In this document: one piece after another, positions 20,270-27,914 of the stretch | Numbering within the stretch: position 1 is the first letter of the stretch | Layout: each line of letters starts with the position of its first letter | NCBI RefSeq assembly: GCF_001484685.1 | Contig: NZ_CP012200.1 | Span: forward strand, 242,321 to 306,320 | Direction: 5' to 3' | DNA: 64,000 nucleotides | DNA from: Thermococcus sp. 2319x1 | GTDB taxonomy: Archaea > Methanobacteriota_B > Thermococci > Thermococcales > Thermococcaceae | Notes under the pieces: generated by a model | What the model was told of the DNA's origin: nothing | Database searches by the model: none | Seen by the model: only the letters and a program-made list of their open reading frames with translations | Position numbers and translations under genes: made by a program

Positions 20270-20289
20270 GGAGGGTTTAAAAACCTTCC
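20270..20289 (-). promoter_or_regulatory. palindromic promoter/operator of thiB
   Basis: GGAGGGTTTAAAAACCTTCC: two 9-base arms matching at eight positions. Read on the minus strand it contains the BRE/TATA-like GGTTTTTAAACC, about 25-30 bases before an expected start near 20252. Such placement suits a repressor site. The 8-bp target duplication of the mobile island begins at the last base of this palindrome. Confidence 0.5.
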
Positions 20290-20296
20290 CTCATCG
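20289..20296. repeat. left target-site duplication (8 bp)
   Basis: CCTCATCG immediately outside the left terminal inverted repeat. The identical octamer lies at 25363-25370 outside the right end. Eight bases is the duplication length usual for IS6-family insertion. Confidence 0.85.
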
Positions 20297-20319
20297 GGTT
20301 CTGTTAACTTATTGTTGGT
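20297..20319 (+). repeat. left terminal inverted repeat (23 bp)
   Basis: Begins GGTTCTGTTAACTTATTG and is identical over 23 bases to the reverse complement of 25340-25362. Beyond this the two ends diverge at once, so it is an end sequence and not a longer duplicated segment. Confidence 0.92.
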
Positions 20320-20391
20320 ATGGTAGGGTGGGGTAGTAGGGAGCAGTAAGCTTTAAAAACTTTAAACATATACTCTATTATGGTGTTTAAG

Positions 20392-20787
20392 ATGCTAAAA
20401 CTGGAGTTTTATGTTCCTCGTGCTTTGGAGGAAACTCCAGATGTTAAAGAGATAGAGGAATTATTGAATGAAGTGAAATCTTCACTTAACATAAATGTAC
20501 AGAAATTTGTTATTGATGAAAGTGGAGAAGAAGACCTAAAGTCTAAAATTCTTTGGGGATTATCTGTTGCCAAAAGAATAAGGATAAAACAAACAAGGAA
20601 ATCAAAATCTCTATACCCACAATTAGTTGTTTTTGGAAATAATAAACCGATAACATTTTATCCACAGGCAAGAGCTGGAGAAGAAATAACAATTAAGGAG
20701 TTTTTGGAAGGTTTGTTGAAAGGAGAGATTAGATGTTTGCATGAAAAGTTTGAAATTGAGGATGAGTTAAGAGGTGAAAGAAAATGA
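20392..20787 (+). CDS. hypothetical protein, first gene of the R-M-like operon
   Basis: 131 residues (MLKLEFYVPRALEE...), mixed alpha/beta, no membrane segment or signal. I do not recognise the family. The pattern of an N-terminal helical stretch followed by YPQLVVFGNNKPITFYPQA faintly recalls a thioredoxin-like fold without the CxxC, which is a guess. ATG 20392 or ATG 20380 could be the start. AT-rich promoter-like sequence lies at 20351-20374. Its stop overlaps the start of the nuclease gene (ATGA), so it is co-translated with the system and may be an accessory or control subunit. Confidence 0.6.
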   Translation: MLKLEFYVPRALEETPDVKEIEELLNEVKSSLNINVQKFVIDESGEEDLKSKILWGLSVAKRIRIKQTRKSKSLYPQLVVFGNNKPITFYPQARAGEEITIKEFLEGLLKGEIRCLHEKFEIEDELRGERK

Positions 20788-21920
20788 CTTCGCAAGACAT
20801 TTTAGATGTATTTGAAATTGAAAAAATCGAAAAGGATATTTTACTTAAATTCGGTTGGTTATTTAAAAACTCACTAGATGAATTTAGCACTTCTGTTGAT
20901 CGAAGCTTGGGCTATTTGGATAAGATCATTCTTCCGACAATAATGGCAAGTAAACAGGATAAATCGTATAACCCGTTCTCAGAAATAATTGAGAAATATG
21001 CCATTCATATCTTAACTCACAAATTAGAAAAAGAAGGTTATAAACTCTTACCTTTGGGGTATTCTGCAGACTTAACTCTTGAAAACAAAGACCACATTCT
21101 GAGTATCGACATAAAGACAGCCAATCTTGACAACCCATCCGATTTTAGGAAAACTATAAACGTGGGTATCAATCAAATGACACATATAGCTAAGTTACGC
21201 ATCAATAGAGAATTTTTACCCGGCCCGTTTTTCGTGTATCCTACAATTCCACCCTATTATAAGTTCCCAGATGGAAGAATAAAATTAATCCTTACCTATG
21301 GACTCCTATTTATCTATCCGTCTTATAGCGATTTGGTGAGAGAAATAAGACAAGACTACACAGAACTGTTCGAGTTTTTCGGAGATAAAGTAAGGAAAGC
21401 TCTGATACCCATACTGGTAAAACTATTAAGGGTAAATGAAAAGAAAGCAGAGCAAATTCTAAAGAGTAAACCCAAAAAATCAAGATATACACGCGAAGAG
21501 TTGATCGCAGAAAGTGTTATTCGTGGTATCTTCATTCATGAACAAGAGAGAGATGAATTACTAAAAAGCCTAGACATCAATTCAGAAGATAAGAAGATTA
21601 TAGAAACCTTTTCTGAAAAACTAAAAGAATTCACAAATAAATTGCGTGAAAGAGATGTTAAACCAATAGCTATAATCGCTATAGCAATACCTAATGGATT
21701 GCTAAAAGAAAAATACCTCGATAAATTTGTAAGCGGTAAAAATTACTCCAAATCCGCAAGATATCATTATGAGGATGGCATTTTTGAGATTATCAAAGAA
21801 AAAACAGGTGATAAGTTCCCTAGGGTTCTCTTCCTTGACGTTAACGAGGAATACCTTAGTGAGCTAAAGAGGTATTTTGACGAAATTGTAATTCTTGACT
21901 ATCAACTAAAGAGGGTGTGA
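20784..21920 (+). CDS. putative restriction endonuclease (PD-(D/E)xK-like)
   Basis: 378 residues. A candidate nuclease core is YSADLTLENKDHILSIDIKT, with Asp96 and D109-x-K111 in the spacing of PD-(D/E)xK enzymes, and Glu67/Glu70 upstream as possible further ligands. The C-terminal half is helical and basic (KSKPKKSRYTREEL). Position immediately before a DNA methyltransferase, three bases apart, supports a type II restriction role. I cannot name the family or recognition site. The start overlaps the preceding gene; GAGGTGA at 20771-20777 is the ribosome site. Confidence 0.65.
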   Translation: MTSQDILDVFEIEKIEKDILLKFGWLFKNSLDEFSTSVDRSLGYLDKIILPTIMASKQDKSYNPFSEIIEKYAIHILTHKLEKEGYKLLPLGYSADLTLENKDHILSIDIKTANLDNPSDFRKTINVGINQMTHIAKLRINREFLPGPFFVYPTIPPYYKFPDGRIKLILTYGLLFIYPSYSDLVREIRQDYTELFEFFGDKVRKALIPILVKLLRVNEKKAEQILKSKPKKSRYTREELIAESVIRGIFIHEQERDELLKSLDINSEDKKIIETFSEKLKEFTNKLRERDVKPIAIIAIAIPNGLLKEKYLDKFVSGKNYSKSARYHYEDGIFEIIKEKTGDKFPRVLFLDVNEEYLSELKRYFDEIVILDYQLKRV

Positions 21921-21923
21921 AAA

Positions 21924-23957
21924 ATGAGAGATATTATTCTACATGGAGATGTATATGCTTGCTTAGATCAACTTGAGGACAACTCAATAGCGGTAGCTAT
22001 TACCTCGCCACCTTATTGGAAACAAAGAGACTATGGATTTGATGGACAAATTGGACAGGAAAATACTCCAGAGGAATACATCGGAAGATTGGTTGTTGTG
22101 TTTAGCAAGTTAAGACAAAAAATGCGTGAGGATGGAGTATTTTTCTTAAATGTTGGAGATAAGTATCTACATAGAAGATATGGAAAATCCCATCTTTTGC
22201 AAATTCCGTACAGGTTAGCGTATCATATGATAAAAGATGGTTGGTATCTGGAAGATGTTATAATTTGGTATAAGCCAAACCACATGCCATCTTCTGTAAA
22301 AGACAGATTTACTAATACTTACGAACCTGTGTTTGTGTTTGCCAAAAGTAAAAATAACATATACAAAAAAGACTCGAATAACGTGGTTAAAATCCCATTA
22401 CAGCAAACACCCTGGAGACATACCGCAGTGTTCCCAGAAAAATTGGTTGAAGAAATGTTAAATAGAATCAATCTAAATGATGGAGACTTAATACTTGACC
22501 CTTTTGCTGGAACGGGAACTGTTGCTGTTGTTGTAAAAAAGATTAGGAGCGGTTTAGTTCCTAAAAGAATTTTCTCTATCATGATAGAGAAGGGAGACCA
22601 CTTCATTGACATAATTAAGAAAAGAGTAGGTATAACGGACATAAAAAAAGTTGGTGATGTACCTTATGAATGGAAACCCGTACAAGAGAAAAAATTGCCT
22701 AAGGATATAGAACCCAAAGAAATACTTACAGATAAACATGGAGAAGTTTTTATCGCTGATACGAGTGATGAGTTTCTTTCTGCTTTGAAAGGAATTACAA
22801 CAGAAAAATTCAAAGATTTTCATAGAGAGGATGCCCTCTACTTCTTTGGAGTCAAAAACTGGACTATACTCGACTTGTACTATATTCACTCAATTTACTA
22901 TGAGGGATATGTTTTAAGAAACATGTTAGTGGTTTCAAATGGAAAAAAATGGTATCCTATTTTTATGTTTGCAAAAGATAGTACAAGAACAGAATATAAG
23001 TTCTACCTTGATCGTGTTAGGATAAGATCAAAAACTAAAGAGAATAGAAATTGGTGGAATGAAGATTTCATAGGTGCAAAGGTAAGAGATATTTCTGGTA
23101 AAAAGACGAAAGAAGGAAGAATAGTTAAAATTATTGAAAGATACAAGGATGGTTTCCCAAAAATAGTTGTCGTTAAATGGGATGGATATGCGTCTATAGA
23201 ATTTGTTCTTCATCCTGAGGAAGATGAATTTATAATGGAAGGTTTAATATTCAAATGCCCTATATGTGGGCACAAATTAGAAGAACCTTATGATCCTGCT
23301 GGTAAAAACATATGTCCATCTTGTGGAAATGCATTATGGACAAATATCAAAACTGTACCTACGATAGAAGAACCGAAAGAAATTACTGAAGTAATTGTAA
23401 AGTTAGAAAATATAAATTACAACGTAGGTGAAGTAATTAAAATAGAGGAATTTGAAGAAATAAGAAAGAAAACAAAAAGCAAGTTTATAGAGTTGGAGAG
23501 AATAAATTGGGGAGCATCTCCTGGGGCAAGAAAACTCATGCTTGGTGAGTACTTCACAAAAATGAGGCTCTATAGAGTAGATCAACCAACAATAGCACAG
23601 TATCTTACAATTTTAAGGAAACATAAGGGTCTAAGTATTCAAGATATAATTAACAAACTTCCAAAGTCATACAAACATACTGTTGGGCATTGGTTTAGAA
23701 AAGACTTTGGTGGGTCAGTACCAATTCCAGAAGATATACCCTTGCTTAAGGAAATTTTTGGAGTAGAGAATAATTTACTAAATGTGTTGGAGAGAACAGC
23801 ACTAAAATTCCAAACAGTAAAAACATCAATAAAAGGCAAAAATCCAGGAGATTTTATCGAAGAACTAACTGATATAGATCTTATTCACTATCTAAAAAAA
23901 TTGTACATTCCTCCACAAAAATATACCAAACTTATAATGTTAAAAGAAAGAGGTTAG
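21924..23957 (+). CDS. DNA methyltransferase (N4-cytosine/N6-adenine, beta class) with long C-terminal extension
   Basis: 677 residues. Motif IV TSPPYW (27-32) precedes the AdoMet motif DPFAGTGT (192-199), the beta-class order. SPPY favours N4-cytosine methylation, though adenine cannot be excluded. Beyond the catalytic domain (about 1-240) there are over 400 extra residues: a possible recognition region, a zinc ribbon CPICGH...CPSCG (Cys 445, 448, 464, 467) and a helix-rich tail with IAQYLTILRKHKGLSIQDII that looks like a helix-turn-helix. It should protect host sites cut by the adjacent nuclease. The extension could determine recognition or autoregulate the operon; this is inference. Confidence 0.85.
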   Translation: MRDIILHGDVYACLDQLEDNSIAVAITSPPYWKQRDYGFDGQIGQENTPEEYIGRLVVVFSKLRQKMREDGVFFLNVGDKYLHRRYGKSHLLQIPYRLAYHMIKDGWYLEDVIIWYKPNHMPSSVKDRFTNTYEPVFVFAKSKNNIYKKDSNNVVKIPLQQTPWRHTAVFPEKLVEEMLNRINLNDGDLILDPFAGTGTVAVVVKKIRSGLVPKRIFSIMIEKGDHFIDIIKKRVGITDIKKVGDVPYEWKPVQEKKLPKDIEPKEILTDKHGEVFIADTSDEFLSALKGITTEKFKDFHREDALYFFGVKNWTILDLYYIHSIYYEGYVLRNMLVVSNGKKWYPIFMFAKDSTRTEYKFYLDRVRIRSKTKENRNWWNEDFIGAKVRDISGKKTKEGRIVKIIERYKDGFPKIVVVKWDGYASIEFVLHPEEDEFIMEGLIFKCPICGHKLEEPYDPAGKNICPSCGNALWTNIKTVPTIEEPKEITEVIVKLENINYNVGEVIKIEEFEEIRKKTKSKFIELERINWGASPGARKLMLGEYFTKMRLYRVDQPTIAQYLTILRKHKGLSIQDIINKLPKSYKHTVGHWFRKDFGGSVPIPEDIPLLKEIFGVENNLLNVLERTALKFQTVKTSIKGKNPGDFIEELTDIDLIHYLKKLYIPPQKYTKLIMLKERG

Positions 23958-24124
23958 ATTCCATTTAATTTTTCACTTTCCTTTATCCTTTCCTTAATCT
24001 TCTCCTCCCATTCTTCATACTTTAAAACTCCTTTCTCTTCAAGTAATTCAACTAATGCAGATAGCATATCATCTAATAACTCAATTTCTTCTTTTAGCTC
24101 TTTAACCTCTTCTTCTTTTGCCAT
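23954..24124 (-). CDS. small acidic coiled-coil protein
   Basis: 56 residues from ATG 24124 (58 if ATG 24130 is used), beginning MAKEEEVKELKEEIELLDD. Glu/Lys-rich with leucine spacing typical of a helix or coiled coil. GGGTGA, which contains the stop of the upstream RHH gene, serves as ribosome site. Its last bases overlap the 3' end of the methyltransferase gene on the opposite strand. Function unknown. Its pairing with a ribbon-helix-helix gene suggests a partner or antitoxin-like role. Confidence 0.6.
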   Translation of the reverse strand: MAKEEEVKELKEEIELLDDMLSALVELLEEKGVLKYEEWEEKIKERIKESEKLNGI

Positions 24125-24130
24125 TTTCAT

Positions 24131-24283
24131 TCACCCTTTCTTTTTCAAATAACCCTTTTCAGATAAATAAGCTAAAACGATATTCCTTACTATTTCTGAA
24201 TCTCTTTCTCCAATTTTTCCTTTAAGCTCTTTCTCTATTATTTCCCAAGCTCCATCTGGTATGCTGACCAATACTCTTTTCAT
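24131..24283 (-). CDS. ribbon-helix-helix (CopG/Arc-like) DNA-binding protein
   Basis: 50 residues starting MKRVLVSIPDGAWEIIEKEL. A short beta strand (RVLVSIP) is followed by two helices (WEIIEKEL, RDSEIVRNIVLAYLSEKG), the ribbon-helix-helix pattern of small archaeal repressors. GGTGAT precedes ATG 24283. It is divergent from the transposase gene and co-directional with the acidic small gene. It probably regulates the divergent promoter region, where an 11-bp direct repeat occurs. Confidence 0.75.
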   Translation of the reverse strand: MKRVLVSIPDGAWEIIEKELKGKIGERDSEIVRNIVLAYLSEKGYLKKKG

Positions 24284-24294
24284 TTCCCATCACC

Positions 24295-24413
24295 TATAAG
24301 ATATATTAGTATGTCATCTTTATAAAGTTTACGATACTTGTGTAATTCTCCAAAGCAATAAAACCGAAAACTTTAAATAACTTTTATATCATAAATATAT
24401 CATATAAGATATA
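24295..24413. promoter_or_regulatory. divergent promoter region with an 11-bp direct repeat
   Basis: TATAAGATATA occurs at 24295-24305 and 24403-24413, each just upstream of the start of one of two divergent genes (RHH protein and transposase). TTTATAAAG at 24320-24328 is a plausible TATA box for the leftward gene and the AT stretch at 24370-24400 for the rightward one. The repeats are candidate sites for the RHH protein. Confidence 0.45.
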
Positions 24414-24426
24414 CAGGTGATATAAA

Positions 24427-25311
24427 ATGAAGTGCAAGTACTGTGGCTCGGAAAATGTAATCAAATACGGAAAAAGCAAAGGAAAGCAATGCTACTTCTG
24501 CAAGGATTGCAGGCACAAGTTTGTTGAAAATGGTACTTTTGTTAAGATGAGAACAAAGGATAAAGTCATAGTCACTGCCTTGGATTTGTATTTTGAAGGA
24601 TTATCAGTTAGAAAAGTTCAAAGACAAATAGCAAAGATATTCGGAGTGAAAGTAAGCCAAGTAGCAATCTGGAAATGGATAATGAAGTATTCTAAGCTTG
24701 TTAAAGAATTTGTTGATAATCTGAAGGTTGAATTAAGCGGGAATTTCCATGTTGATGAAACTATGATAAAGTGCGATGGAGAATATAAATGGTTCTGGGA
24801 AATAATTGATAATGAAACTAAATTCTTAGTTGCCACTCACTTATCTGGAGAAAGAACGATAGAGGAAGTTATTAAGCTGTTTAAACAAGCAAAGAAAAGA
24901 TCTGCTGAGAGACCAAAAAGAATAGTTGTAGATGGTTTATGGGCTTATGAGAAAGGTTTCAAGAAAGTTTTCTACAGCAGGTATAAGGAGCATAGAGTTG
25001 AATTTGCGAGAAAAGCTGGAATAAGAGCAAGAGAAACAAATAATGTTGTTGAGAGATTGCATGGAACTTTAAAAGATAGGCTAAAACCGTTAAGAGGATT
25101 AAAAAGTGAAGAAACGGCTAAGATTTGGTTGGATGGTTGGTTTGTTTACTACAATTTCATAAGACCTCATTTAAGCTTAAAGGGTAAGACACTCGCTGAA
25201 GCTTGTGGAATTGATTTGGAAATGGAGAATGGTTGGGAAGACTTGATAAAAGAGGCTACCTCTTATCAAACCAAGTTGACAAGGTTTGTTTCTAACGAAT
25301 CGGAGATTTAA
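24427..25311 (+). CDS. IS6-like DDE transposase with zinc ribbon
   Basis: 294 residues. The N-terminal zinc ribbon has CKYC (3/6) and CKDC (25/28). A helix-turn-helix-like region (SVRKVQRQIAKIFGVKVSQVAIWKW) follows. The catalytic triad is Asp110 (FHVDET), Asp169 (VVDGLWAY) and Glu209 in ETNNVVERLHGTLKDRLKP, the layout of IS6/IS240-type transposases. AGGTGA precedes ATG 24427. It ends 28 bases before the right terminal repeat. It appears intact and could mobilise the whole 5-kb island. Confidence 0.87.
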   Translation: MKCKYCGSENVIKYGKSKGKQCYFCKDCRHKFVENGTFVKMRTKDKVIVTALDLYFEGLSVRKVQRQIAKIFGVKVSQVAIWKWIMKYSKLVKEFVDNLKVELSGNFHVDETMIKCDGEYKWFWEIIDNETKFLVATHLSGERTIEEVIKLFKQAKKRSAERPKRIVVDGLWAYEKGFKKVFYSRYKEHRVEFARKAGIRARETNNVVERLHGTLKDRLKPLRGLKSEETAKIWLDGWFVYYNFIRPHLSLKGKTLAEACGIDLEMENGWEDLIKEATSYQTKLTRFVSNESEI

Positions 25312-25339
25312 ACTCAATAAATTTTTTATTTTTCATCTC

Positions 25340-25362
25340 ACCAACAATAAGTTAACAGAACC
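25340..25362 (-). repeat. right terminal inverted repeat (23 bp)
   Basis: Reverse complement is identical to the left end at 20297-20319 over all 23 bases. It lies downstream of the transposase gene. CCTCATCG follows directly at 25363-25370. Confidence 0.92.
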
Positions 25363-25370
25363 CCTCATCG
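25363..25370. repeat. right target-site duplication (8 bp)
   Basis: CCTCATCG, identical to 20289-20296. Rejoining the two flanks at this octamer rebuilds a short spacer between the divergent promoters of thiB and tRNA-Gly. Confidence 0.85.
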
Positions 25371-25371
25371 C

Positions 25372-25384
25372 AAACTTTATAAAT
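25372..25384 (+). promoter_or_regulatory. tRNA-Gly promoter
   Basis: AAACTTTATAAAT is a good BRE-TATA match. Its TATA core at 25376-25384 would direct a start near 25409, a few bases before the tRNA at 25416. It begins two bases after the right target duplication, so the insertion left this promoter intact. Confidence 0.65.
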
Positions 25385-25415: not shown

Positions 25416-25493
25416 GCGGTGGTAGTCTAGCCTGGTCTAGGACACCGGCCTTCCAAGCCGGTGACCCGGGTTCAAATCCCGGCCACCGCACCA
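25416..25493 (+). tRNA. tRNA-Gly (anticodon UCC)
   Basis: Acceptor GCGGTGG/CCACCGC, anticodon stem CCGGC/GCCGG closing CTTCCAA, T arm CCGGG-TTCAAAT-CCCGG, discriminator A and encoded CCA. Reads GGA and GGG codons. It is the nearest gene to the right end of the mobile element, but the element did not insert into it. Confidence 0.95.
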
Positions 25494-27240: not shown

Positions 27241-27828
27241 TTATCCTATTTTTTCCACGAGTTCATCGAGAACCTCCTTAAACCTTGCAGCATCTATCCA
27301 CTTGATCCCCATCTTTTGGGCCCATGTTAAAATCCCAATATCTGCAGAAACAATTGTTGCATCGAGTTCTTTGGCCAGAAGAATGAGCTCAAAATCTTCC
27401 TTACTGTCCACAATTCCCTCTCGTAGAGCCTTTCTGTAGTTTCTCCTAAGTCTCTGGATTATTGCGTCCACATTTTGCGTGTCTATTACACTCTCTCTCA
27501 CTGCCTTTTCAGCTACTCTAAGGCCTTTGTCTATCCTCCTCCTAATATCGTCAATGAGTTCATAAACGACAAAAGCAGGTATTTTGATGTCATGCACGTT
27601 GGGAGGTTTTTTGATTATATAAAGCTCAACATCGGGAGAAACTTCTTCGAGTTCAACAAAATGAGTTACCTCCTTGTAGATACCCGGAGGCATGTAGAAT
27701 TCAACCCTGCCAAAAAGCCTCTCCGCGTACTCTAAAAATTTTTTCATGGCTTCTGTAGGGTTTTCTCCAAACTTGTTCCTAATATCTGGATTAACAAAGA
27801 TGCTCGTGTCAAGCACAAAGCGGATCAT
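27241..27828 (-). CDS. HARP-type PIN-domain protein (RNA-free RNase P homologue, UPF0278)
   Basis: 195 residues starting MIRFVLDTSIFVNPDIRNKFG, whose LDTS supplies the first PIN acidic residue. Further acidic clusters are DSKEDFELILLAKEL and VSADIGILTWAQKMGIKWID. The length and the helical insertion (DDIRRRIDKGLRVAEKAVRE) match homologues of Aquifex RNase P (HARP), once called RNA ligase partner proteins. Aquifex protein removes tRNA 5' leaders alone; archaeal HARPs coexist with RNA-based RNase P, so the cellular role is open. ATG 27828 follows GGTGAAA. It is divergent from the gene at 27915. Confidence 0.85.
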   Translation of the reverse strand: MIRFVLDTSIFVNPDIRNKFGENPTEAMKKFLEYAERLFGRVEFYMPPGIYKEVTHFVELEEVSPDVELYIIKKPPNVHDIKIPAFVVYELIDDIRRRIDKGLRVAEKAVRESVIDTQNVDAIIQRLRRNYRKALREGIVDSKEDFELILLAKELDATIVSADIGILTWAQKMGIKWIDAARFKEVLDELVEKIG

Positions 27829-27914
27829 TTTCACCACAATCTATTATTGTTCATTAGGCTTTAAAACGGTAACCTTAAATTTCAGTGCTCTCAACCTTTA
27901 TTGGAGGTTGTAAA

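Follow-up and report, generated by a model that had tools for sequence, protein, structure and literature searches.

A complete cargo transposon of 5,066 bp was recognized in the Thermococcus sp. 2319x1 chromosome, at positions 20297-25362 of the window, i.e., the whole stretch of 64,000 nucleotides that was analysed. With a probability of about 80%, it is one transposon with 23-bp ends and an IS6-type transposase, in which a restriction-modification (R-M) operon occupies the slot that holds cassettes in related elements. The features were assigned as follows.

20289..20296, no strand: target-site duplication, left copy CCTCATCG, single copy in the empty site of nine species
20297..20319, plus strand: left terminal inverted repeat (TIR) GGTTCTGTTAACTTATTGTTGGT, 23 bp, perfect
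20380..20787, plus strand: orf135, first gene of the cargo operon, no family assigned (single-sequence structure model with pLDDT 49)
20784..21920, plus strand: type II restriction endonuclease (REase), 378 aa (PADLOC REase_II PDLC03522, E 1.7e-77, nearly full length)
21924..23957, plus strand: type II DNA methyltransferase (MTase), 677 aa (PADLOC MTase_II PDLC03303, E 8.9e-264; Pfam N6_N4_Mtase, 1.5e-37)
23954..24124, minus strand: orfA, 56 aa, charged, coiled-coil-like, with homologues beside a recombinase or TIR in L095, L007/L008, and L106
24131..24283, minus strand: orfB, 50 aa, with homologues in L060 (95% over 20 aa) and L095 (about 70%)
24427..25311, plus strand: IS6-family transposase, 294 aa, intact (NCBIfam transpos_IS6 NF033587, 144.3 bits, cut-off 125; Pfam DDE_Tnp_IS240 PF13610, 9.1e-21)
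25340..25362, minus strand: right TIR, 23 bp, perfect
25363..25370, no strand: target-site duplication, right copy CCTCATCG, adjoining the tRNA-Gly(TCC) gene at 25416-25493

Boundaries and insertion site

A preliminary description of this DNA had reported the perfect TIRs and their identical 8-bp flanks, and all of these coordinates were confirmed. No further perfect 23-bp inverted repeat with arms 1-12 kb apart was found elsewhere in the 64-kb window. Shuffled sequence gave a mean of 0.2 seed pairs at 16 bp and zero at 18 bp, and a perfect 23-bp inverted repeat at such spacing is far beyond chance. Exactly two copies of the TIR were present in the 1.96-Mb host genome with up to three mismatches allowed.

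The 8-mer CCTCATCG alone is not rare, i.e., 8 copies in the window versus 1.45 expected. It is meaningful because it lies flush against both TIRs and because relatives have single-copy empty sites. The empty CCTCATCG site, proposed earlier as a check, was searched with a query in which the left and right flanks met at one CCTCATCG. The query was matched continuously, at 78-93% identity and with the target in single copy, in nine other species of the genus. Since the site is empty in these nine relatives, the 5,066 bp were inserted here, with duplication of an 8-bp target. Compared with the genus relatives, the insertion upstream of the tRNA-Gly gene was found in this species only. R-M genes at this locus in relatives without the repeats, which had been named as evidence against a mobile unit, were looked for in the genus and were absent. 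The G+C content of the element is 0.333 versus 0.441 in the remaining window, and it is equally low in cargo and transposase (0.32-0.35). All principal genes are uninterrupted, and therefore the insertion looks recent.

In a sister species (L175, G078:C1:523000-524600), an unrelated IS of roughly 870 bp, with the ends GGGGCGTGTTTA.../...TAAACACGCCCC, was found in the same CCTCATCG target, which is also duplicated. Two different transposons, i.e., the window element and this IS, thus occupy the same 8 bp just upstream of a tRNA-Gly gene. In several copies of the element, as seen at window 25371-25384 and in the right flanks of L003, L007, and L059, a TATA-box-like sequence follows the insertion by a dozen or so bases, with the transposase end facing this box. 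A target preference of the element family for promoters is possible. Outside the element, a gene of RNA-free ribonuclease P (HARP), close to the solved structure 7e8j, was found at 27241-27837.

Restriction-modification cargo

The cargo operon, orf135-REase-MTase, reads from the left end towards the right. The structure model of orf135 was rejected as unusable, its quality being too poor. The REase and MTase belong to known type II families and are adjacent, i.e., they have the make-up of a type II R-M system in PADLOC. In the REase, SADL...DIK, read by eye, fits a PD-(D/E)XK site. The MTase has a TSPPYW motif, a zinc ribbon, and a C-terminal extension. The earlier assignment as an IS6-type element with R-M cargo is supported by these PADLOC families and by the transposase score above the IS6 cut-off.

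The closest relative of the R-M genes is an REase-MTase pair at L010 (G059:C29) in another genus of the family, with an MTase 68% identical. No TIR or other transposon end was found beside this pair; it is located outside any such element, and therefore the R-M genes and the vehicle are not obligatorily linked. In 384 Halobacteriota genomes, the MTase gave partial matches of 48-50% only. Plasmid searching gave weak matches for the MTase, at best 45% (a Picrophilus plasmid), and none for the REase or the cargo DNA. The cargo DNA had no significant match to related elements and found only itself and one 66-bp stretch elsewhere. A second copy of the R-M-bearing version of the element was not found.

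Transposon core

The preliminary description had listed an R-M operon, two small genes, and one transposase between the ends, and this content was confirmed. The small genes, orfA and orfB, both lie on the minus strand and diverge from the transposase; they are part of the transposon core, outside the R-M cargo. As the first gene of this conserved core, orfA is placed tail-to-tail with the MTase. OrfB is ribbon-helix-helix-like by eye, had no Pfam match, and is proposed as a candidate regulator. The transposase has an N-terminal CxxC...CxxC zinc ribbon, and its DDE residues were located by sequence and by eye at D110, D169, and E209, followed by K216.

The core, i.e., orfA, orfB, transposase, and right end, was also found in elements of other archaeal phyla. 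The core DNA is 78-90% identical across phyla over hundreds of bases, the similarity beginning at window position 23960.

A broken transposase of the same branch is present elsewhere in the host genome (L039 1501-1959, G000:C1:1083939-1084397), with 45% identity and one stop. No recognizable 23-bp ends were found beside it.

Complete relatives and distribution

Three more complete copies were identified, i.e., L059 (4,729 bp, duplication AATTATCG/AATTATCG), L094 (4,920 bp, TAAAAAAG/TAAAAAAG), and one in G083 (1,817 bp, CATAATCT/CATGATCT, imperfect with 7 of 8). Each has its own duplication, and together these copies show that the family as a rule carries its cargo between left end and transposase. 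The TIR-bearing ends are of two types. Right ends run into the transposase 3' end or its remnants. Left ends mostly run into ATAACGTTTKGCGGGTAT..., the start of an attC-like site, and never show subterminal sequence of the transposase side. The proposal of a single transposable unit is supported: relatives that share these ends and this asymmetry have different cargo within their own duplications, and empty sites exist. As a point against it, frameshifts or contig ends interrupt the transposases of most relatives.

A 322-bp MITE-like unit with both family ends, one attC-like site, and no genes was also seen (L112 3789-4110, G270).

An ordinary IS6 element under 1 kb that captured cargo had been suggested as the origin, and this was rejected because the short copies differ in their ends and this lineage has cargo in every complete copy seen. 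The short Thermococcaceae IS6 copies are not the parent; they start with GATACTGT[TC]AGGATAA at their ends, and their transposases share only 30-34% identity with the one here. No other Thermococcaceae genome had this transposase above 45% identity, and the other genomes of the family carry mainly such ISPfu-like elements with differing ends.

Near relatives of the transposase were searched in a collection with one genome per species. Matched segments of 67-90% identity were found in metagenome-assembled genomes (MAGs) named Geoglobus, Candidatus Methanoxibalbensis, Thermoproteales, Thermoproteota, Methanobacteriaceae, and Micrarchaeota, and a Heimdallarchaeota MAG had a relative at 60%; MAG contigs can be misbinned, but the matches stem from many separate genomes. 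With up to two mismatches, the TIR was present in 4/115 genomes of the host's phylum, 12/394 of the Geoglobus phylum, 5/398 of the Thermoproteales phylum, and 1/152 of the Methanobacteriaceae phylum, counts that take in the seed genomes. The identical 23-mer was found at both ends of L059 and as single ends in G275, G417, G374, G266, G548, G115, G118, and G120. Neither the transposase nor the TIR was matched in viral contigs, and transposase matches on plasmids reached only about 31% identity. The range is therefore not limited to Thermococcales, as had been assumed, since near-identical cores are also present in MAGs named Geoglobus, Methanoxibalbensis, Methanobacteriaceae, and Thermoproteales. 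The search with the 23-bp repeat, suggested earlier, gave the same ends in other archaea but no second R-M-bearing unit with different flanks.

Integron-like cassettes in the relatives

In most relatives, the cargo comprises cassettes together with an attI-like hairpin and a tyrosine recombinase resembling XerA. A strict text-grammar scan for attC missed most sites, and a covariance model was therefore derived from six sites at left ends. Many more intergenic sites were recognized inside the cargo of L059, L094, L095, L096, and L097, with E-values down to about 1e-15, and the attC-like stem covaries. In the control, 169 kb of mostly Thermococcaceae DNA, the best match had E 0.19. By this model, putative attC sites lie between the cassettes of same-end relatives, as in an integron. 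A conserved hairpin, TTTCCCGCAATGYTTTCGGGAAA, was found beside the tyrosine recombinase gene in L095, beside its remnant in L007/L008, and also in L059. It is attI-like in position.

The recombinase query was read through a pseudogene, i.e., the broken L095 copy. Its top NCBIfam model was XerA_Arch with 160 bits, below the cut-off of 220, and it scored 129 against a cut-off of 265 with integrase_gron. In the alignment, the IntI-specific insertion near patch III, by which an IntI is recognized, is absent. Because the recombinase is XerA-like and lacks this insertion, the system is termed integron-like. A role of the recombinase as cointegrate resolvase is another possibility.

The gene order in L095 is cassettes, hairpin, recombinase, orfA, radical-SAM gene, orfB, transposase, and right end. 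Several relatives carry R-M genes: two R-M type gene sets are among the L095 cassettes, and the cargo of L094 includes an N6 DNA methylase. The cassette genes of the relatives share a common polarity.

Two further observations concern the content of the relatives. A radical SAM mobile pair protein B, by match or resemblance, is encoded at L095 1530-2414, with a fragment at L059 2019-2192, and the family name already hints at mobility. In L096 (5588-12974, G509), a type III-C CRISPR effector operon (Cas10, Cmr1, Cmr3, and Cmr4), possibly cargo, is placed directly inside the left end and an attC-like site; the second transposon end was not found there.

DNA similarity of the window element to L095, L094, and L007 starts at 23960-23970, just past the MTase stop, and there is none in the R-M cargo. 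In L095 the recombinase stop is directly beside the orfA stop, and the stop codons of MTase and orfA overlap in the window element. Thus, the R-M operon fills the exact slot of cassettes, hairpin, and recombinase. Remnants of attC, the attI-like hairpin, or the recombinase were not found in the window element, which by itself is not an integron.

Comparison with known systems

The element resembles the IS6 family (IS26, IS257, ISPfu-type) in the transposase above the model cut-off, the DDE residues, the inverted ends, and the duplication, which is 8 bp here and in L059 and L094, and 7 of 8 in G083. It differs in size, i.e., 5,066 bp and six genes, whereas IS6 elements are short (about 0.7-1.8 kb, single gene) and ordinary ones under 1 kb. 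It also differs in a transposase of 294 aa with a zinc ribbon and in ends of 23 bp. In the IS6 review, zinc-finger transposases were reported for clades h (Clostridia) and i, not for archaea (PMC7986276).

The same review names ISDsp3 as the only IS6-family transporter IS (tIS), with one hypothetical gene as passenger (PMC7986276). Like a tIS, the window element has passenger genes and one transposase between one pair of ends, and from their gene families the passengers would be dispensable for transposition. Unlike ISDsp3, it carries an R-M operon, and in its relatives the cassettes vary and are accompanied by attC-like sites and a recombinase.

With archaeal integrons (Ghaly et al. 2022, PMC9668308) and transposon-borne bacterial integrons, the relatives have in common the attC-like sites, a shared polarity of the genes, and, next to the tyrosine recombinase, an attI-like hairpin. 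However, archaeal IntIs are reported to carry the IntI-specific insertion that the XerA-like recombinase lacks, and the window element has no attC, attI, or recombinase. A search of that paper found no description of a transposon or insertion-sequence vehicle. IS-linked R-M systems are also tied to an IS transposase, but in those systems two IS copies border the genes, or the genes move in cointegrates (PMC3031569), whereas in the window element they lie between the two ends of a single unit with one transposase. No such archaeal cargo or cassette transposon was found in the open-access literature, and the window element is best regarded as a derivative, carrying R-M genes, of an archaeal IS6-type cassette transposon that is apparently undescribed.

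Alternative explanations

The whole unit was probably transposed by its own transposase, with the R-M genes probably aboard when it landed. The movement of these genes within the unit was not directly seen, because the R-M version turned up only once. For the same reason, the intact duplication, taken earlier as a sign that the unit moved whole, indicates that a TIR-bounded unit landed once and is no proof that the R-M genes were inside at that time. The element could instead have landed with cassettes and a recombinase, the R-M operon replacing them later in place by recombination without ever travelling. The single copy, the exact filling of the cassette, attI, and recombinase slot with a boundary three bases past the MTase stop, and a target duplication that would look identical all agree with such a replacement. 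It is nevertheless improbable, since R-M type genes inside attC-bearing relatives indicate that such cargo rides in the family, the rest of the element keeps no trace of cassette, hairpin, or recombinase, and cargo and transposase are equally low in G+C. An arrival of the operon as a single integron-type cassette that has since lost its attC is a sub-case compatible with the single cargo transposon. The R-M slot is the cassette slot, and L095 has R-M cassettes with attC sites. This route is unlikely, as no attC-like site is present in the window element, the R-M genes point to the core, opposite to the cassette polarity of L059 and L095, and cassette insertion leaves the missing recombinase unexplained.

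A two-IS compound with a left IS shrunken to its end had also been considered earlier, and it is now very improbable. IS6 elements often form pseudo-compound transposons (PMC7986276), and the left end here is indeed the 23-bp repeat only. However, there are not two flanking IS copies but one transposase, and the left end has no subterminal IS sequence; the same holds for the left ends of relatives, most of which enter an attC-like site directly. Complete relatives are equally asymmetric, with a single transposase and their own duplications, and a partner IS copy is absent from the genome.

Proposed mechanism and significance

For the single cargo transposon, the transposase (24427-25311) would bind the two 23-bp ends, 5 kb apart, and everything between them would be inserted with an 8-bp target duplication. 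Both end binding and such insertion are established for IS6 as a family. The orfB/orfA pair, which shares a promoter region with the divergent transposase gene, probably regulates transposition, and OrfB may repress the transposase. The R-M pair would methylate the host genome and cleave invading DNA that lacks this methylation, and it probably helps to retain the element by post-segregational killing. Host defence and stabilisation by killing cells that lose the genes are established for type II R-M systems in general.

The spread of R-M and defence genes between archaea has so far mostly been inferred from patchy distributions. The window element provides a concrete vehicle: its ends are defined, its target is duplicated, the site is empty in relatives, and its transposase is intact. 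The core identity of 78-90% in other phyla points to recent inter-phylum transfer. Unexpected in the relatives are integron-like cassettes on an archaeal IS6-type transposon, whose recombinase does not pass the test generally applied to IntI. It is plausible, with the odds evenly poised, that these elements are archaea-wide mobile integron-like transposons, in which an IS6-type transposase and 23-bp ends move a platform of attC cassettes, often with defence genes and with a XerA-like recombinase in place of a canonical IntI. The window element would then be a derivative whose platform was wholly taken over by the R-M operon. Two questions thereby become testable, i.e., the identity of the enzyme that moves archaeal cassettes, and transposition as a possible explanation of their scatter.
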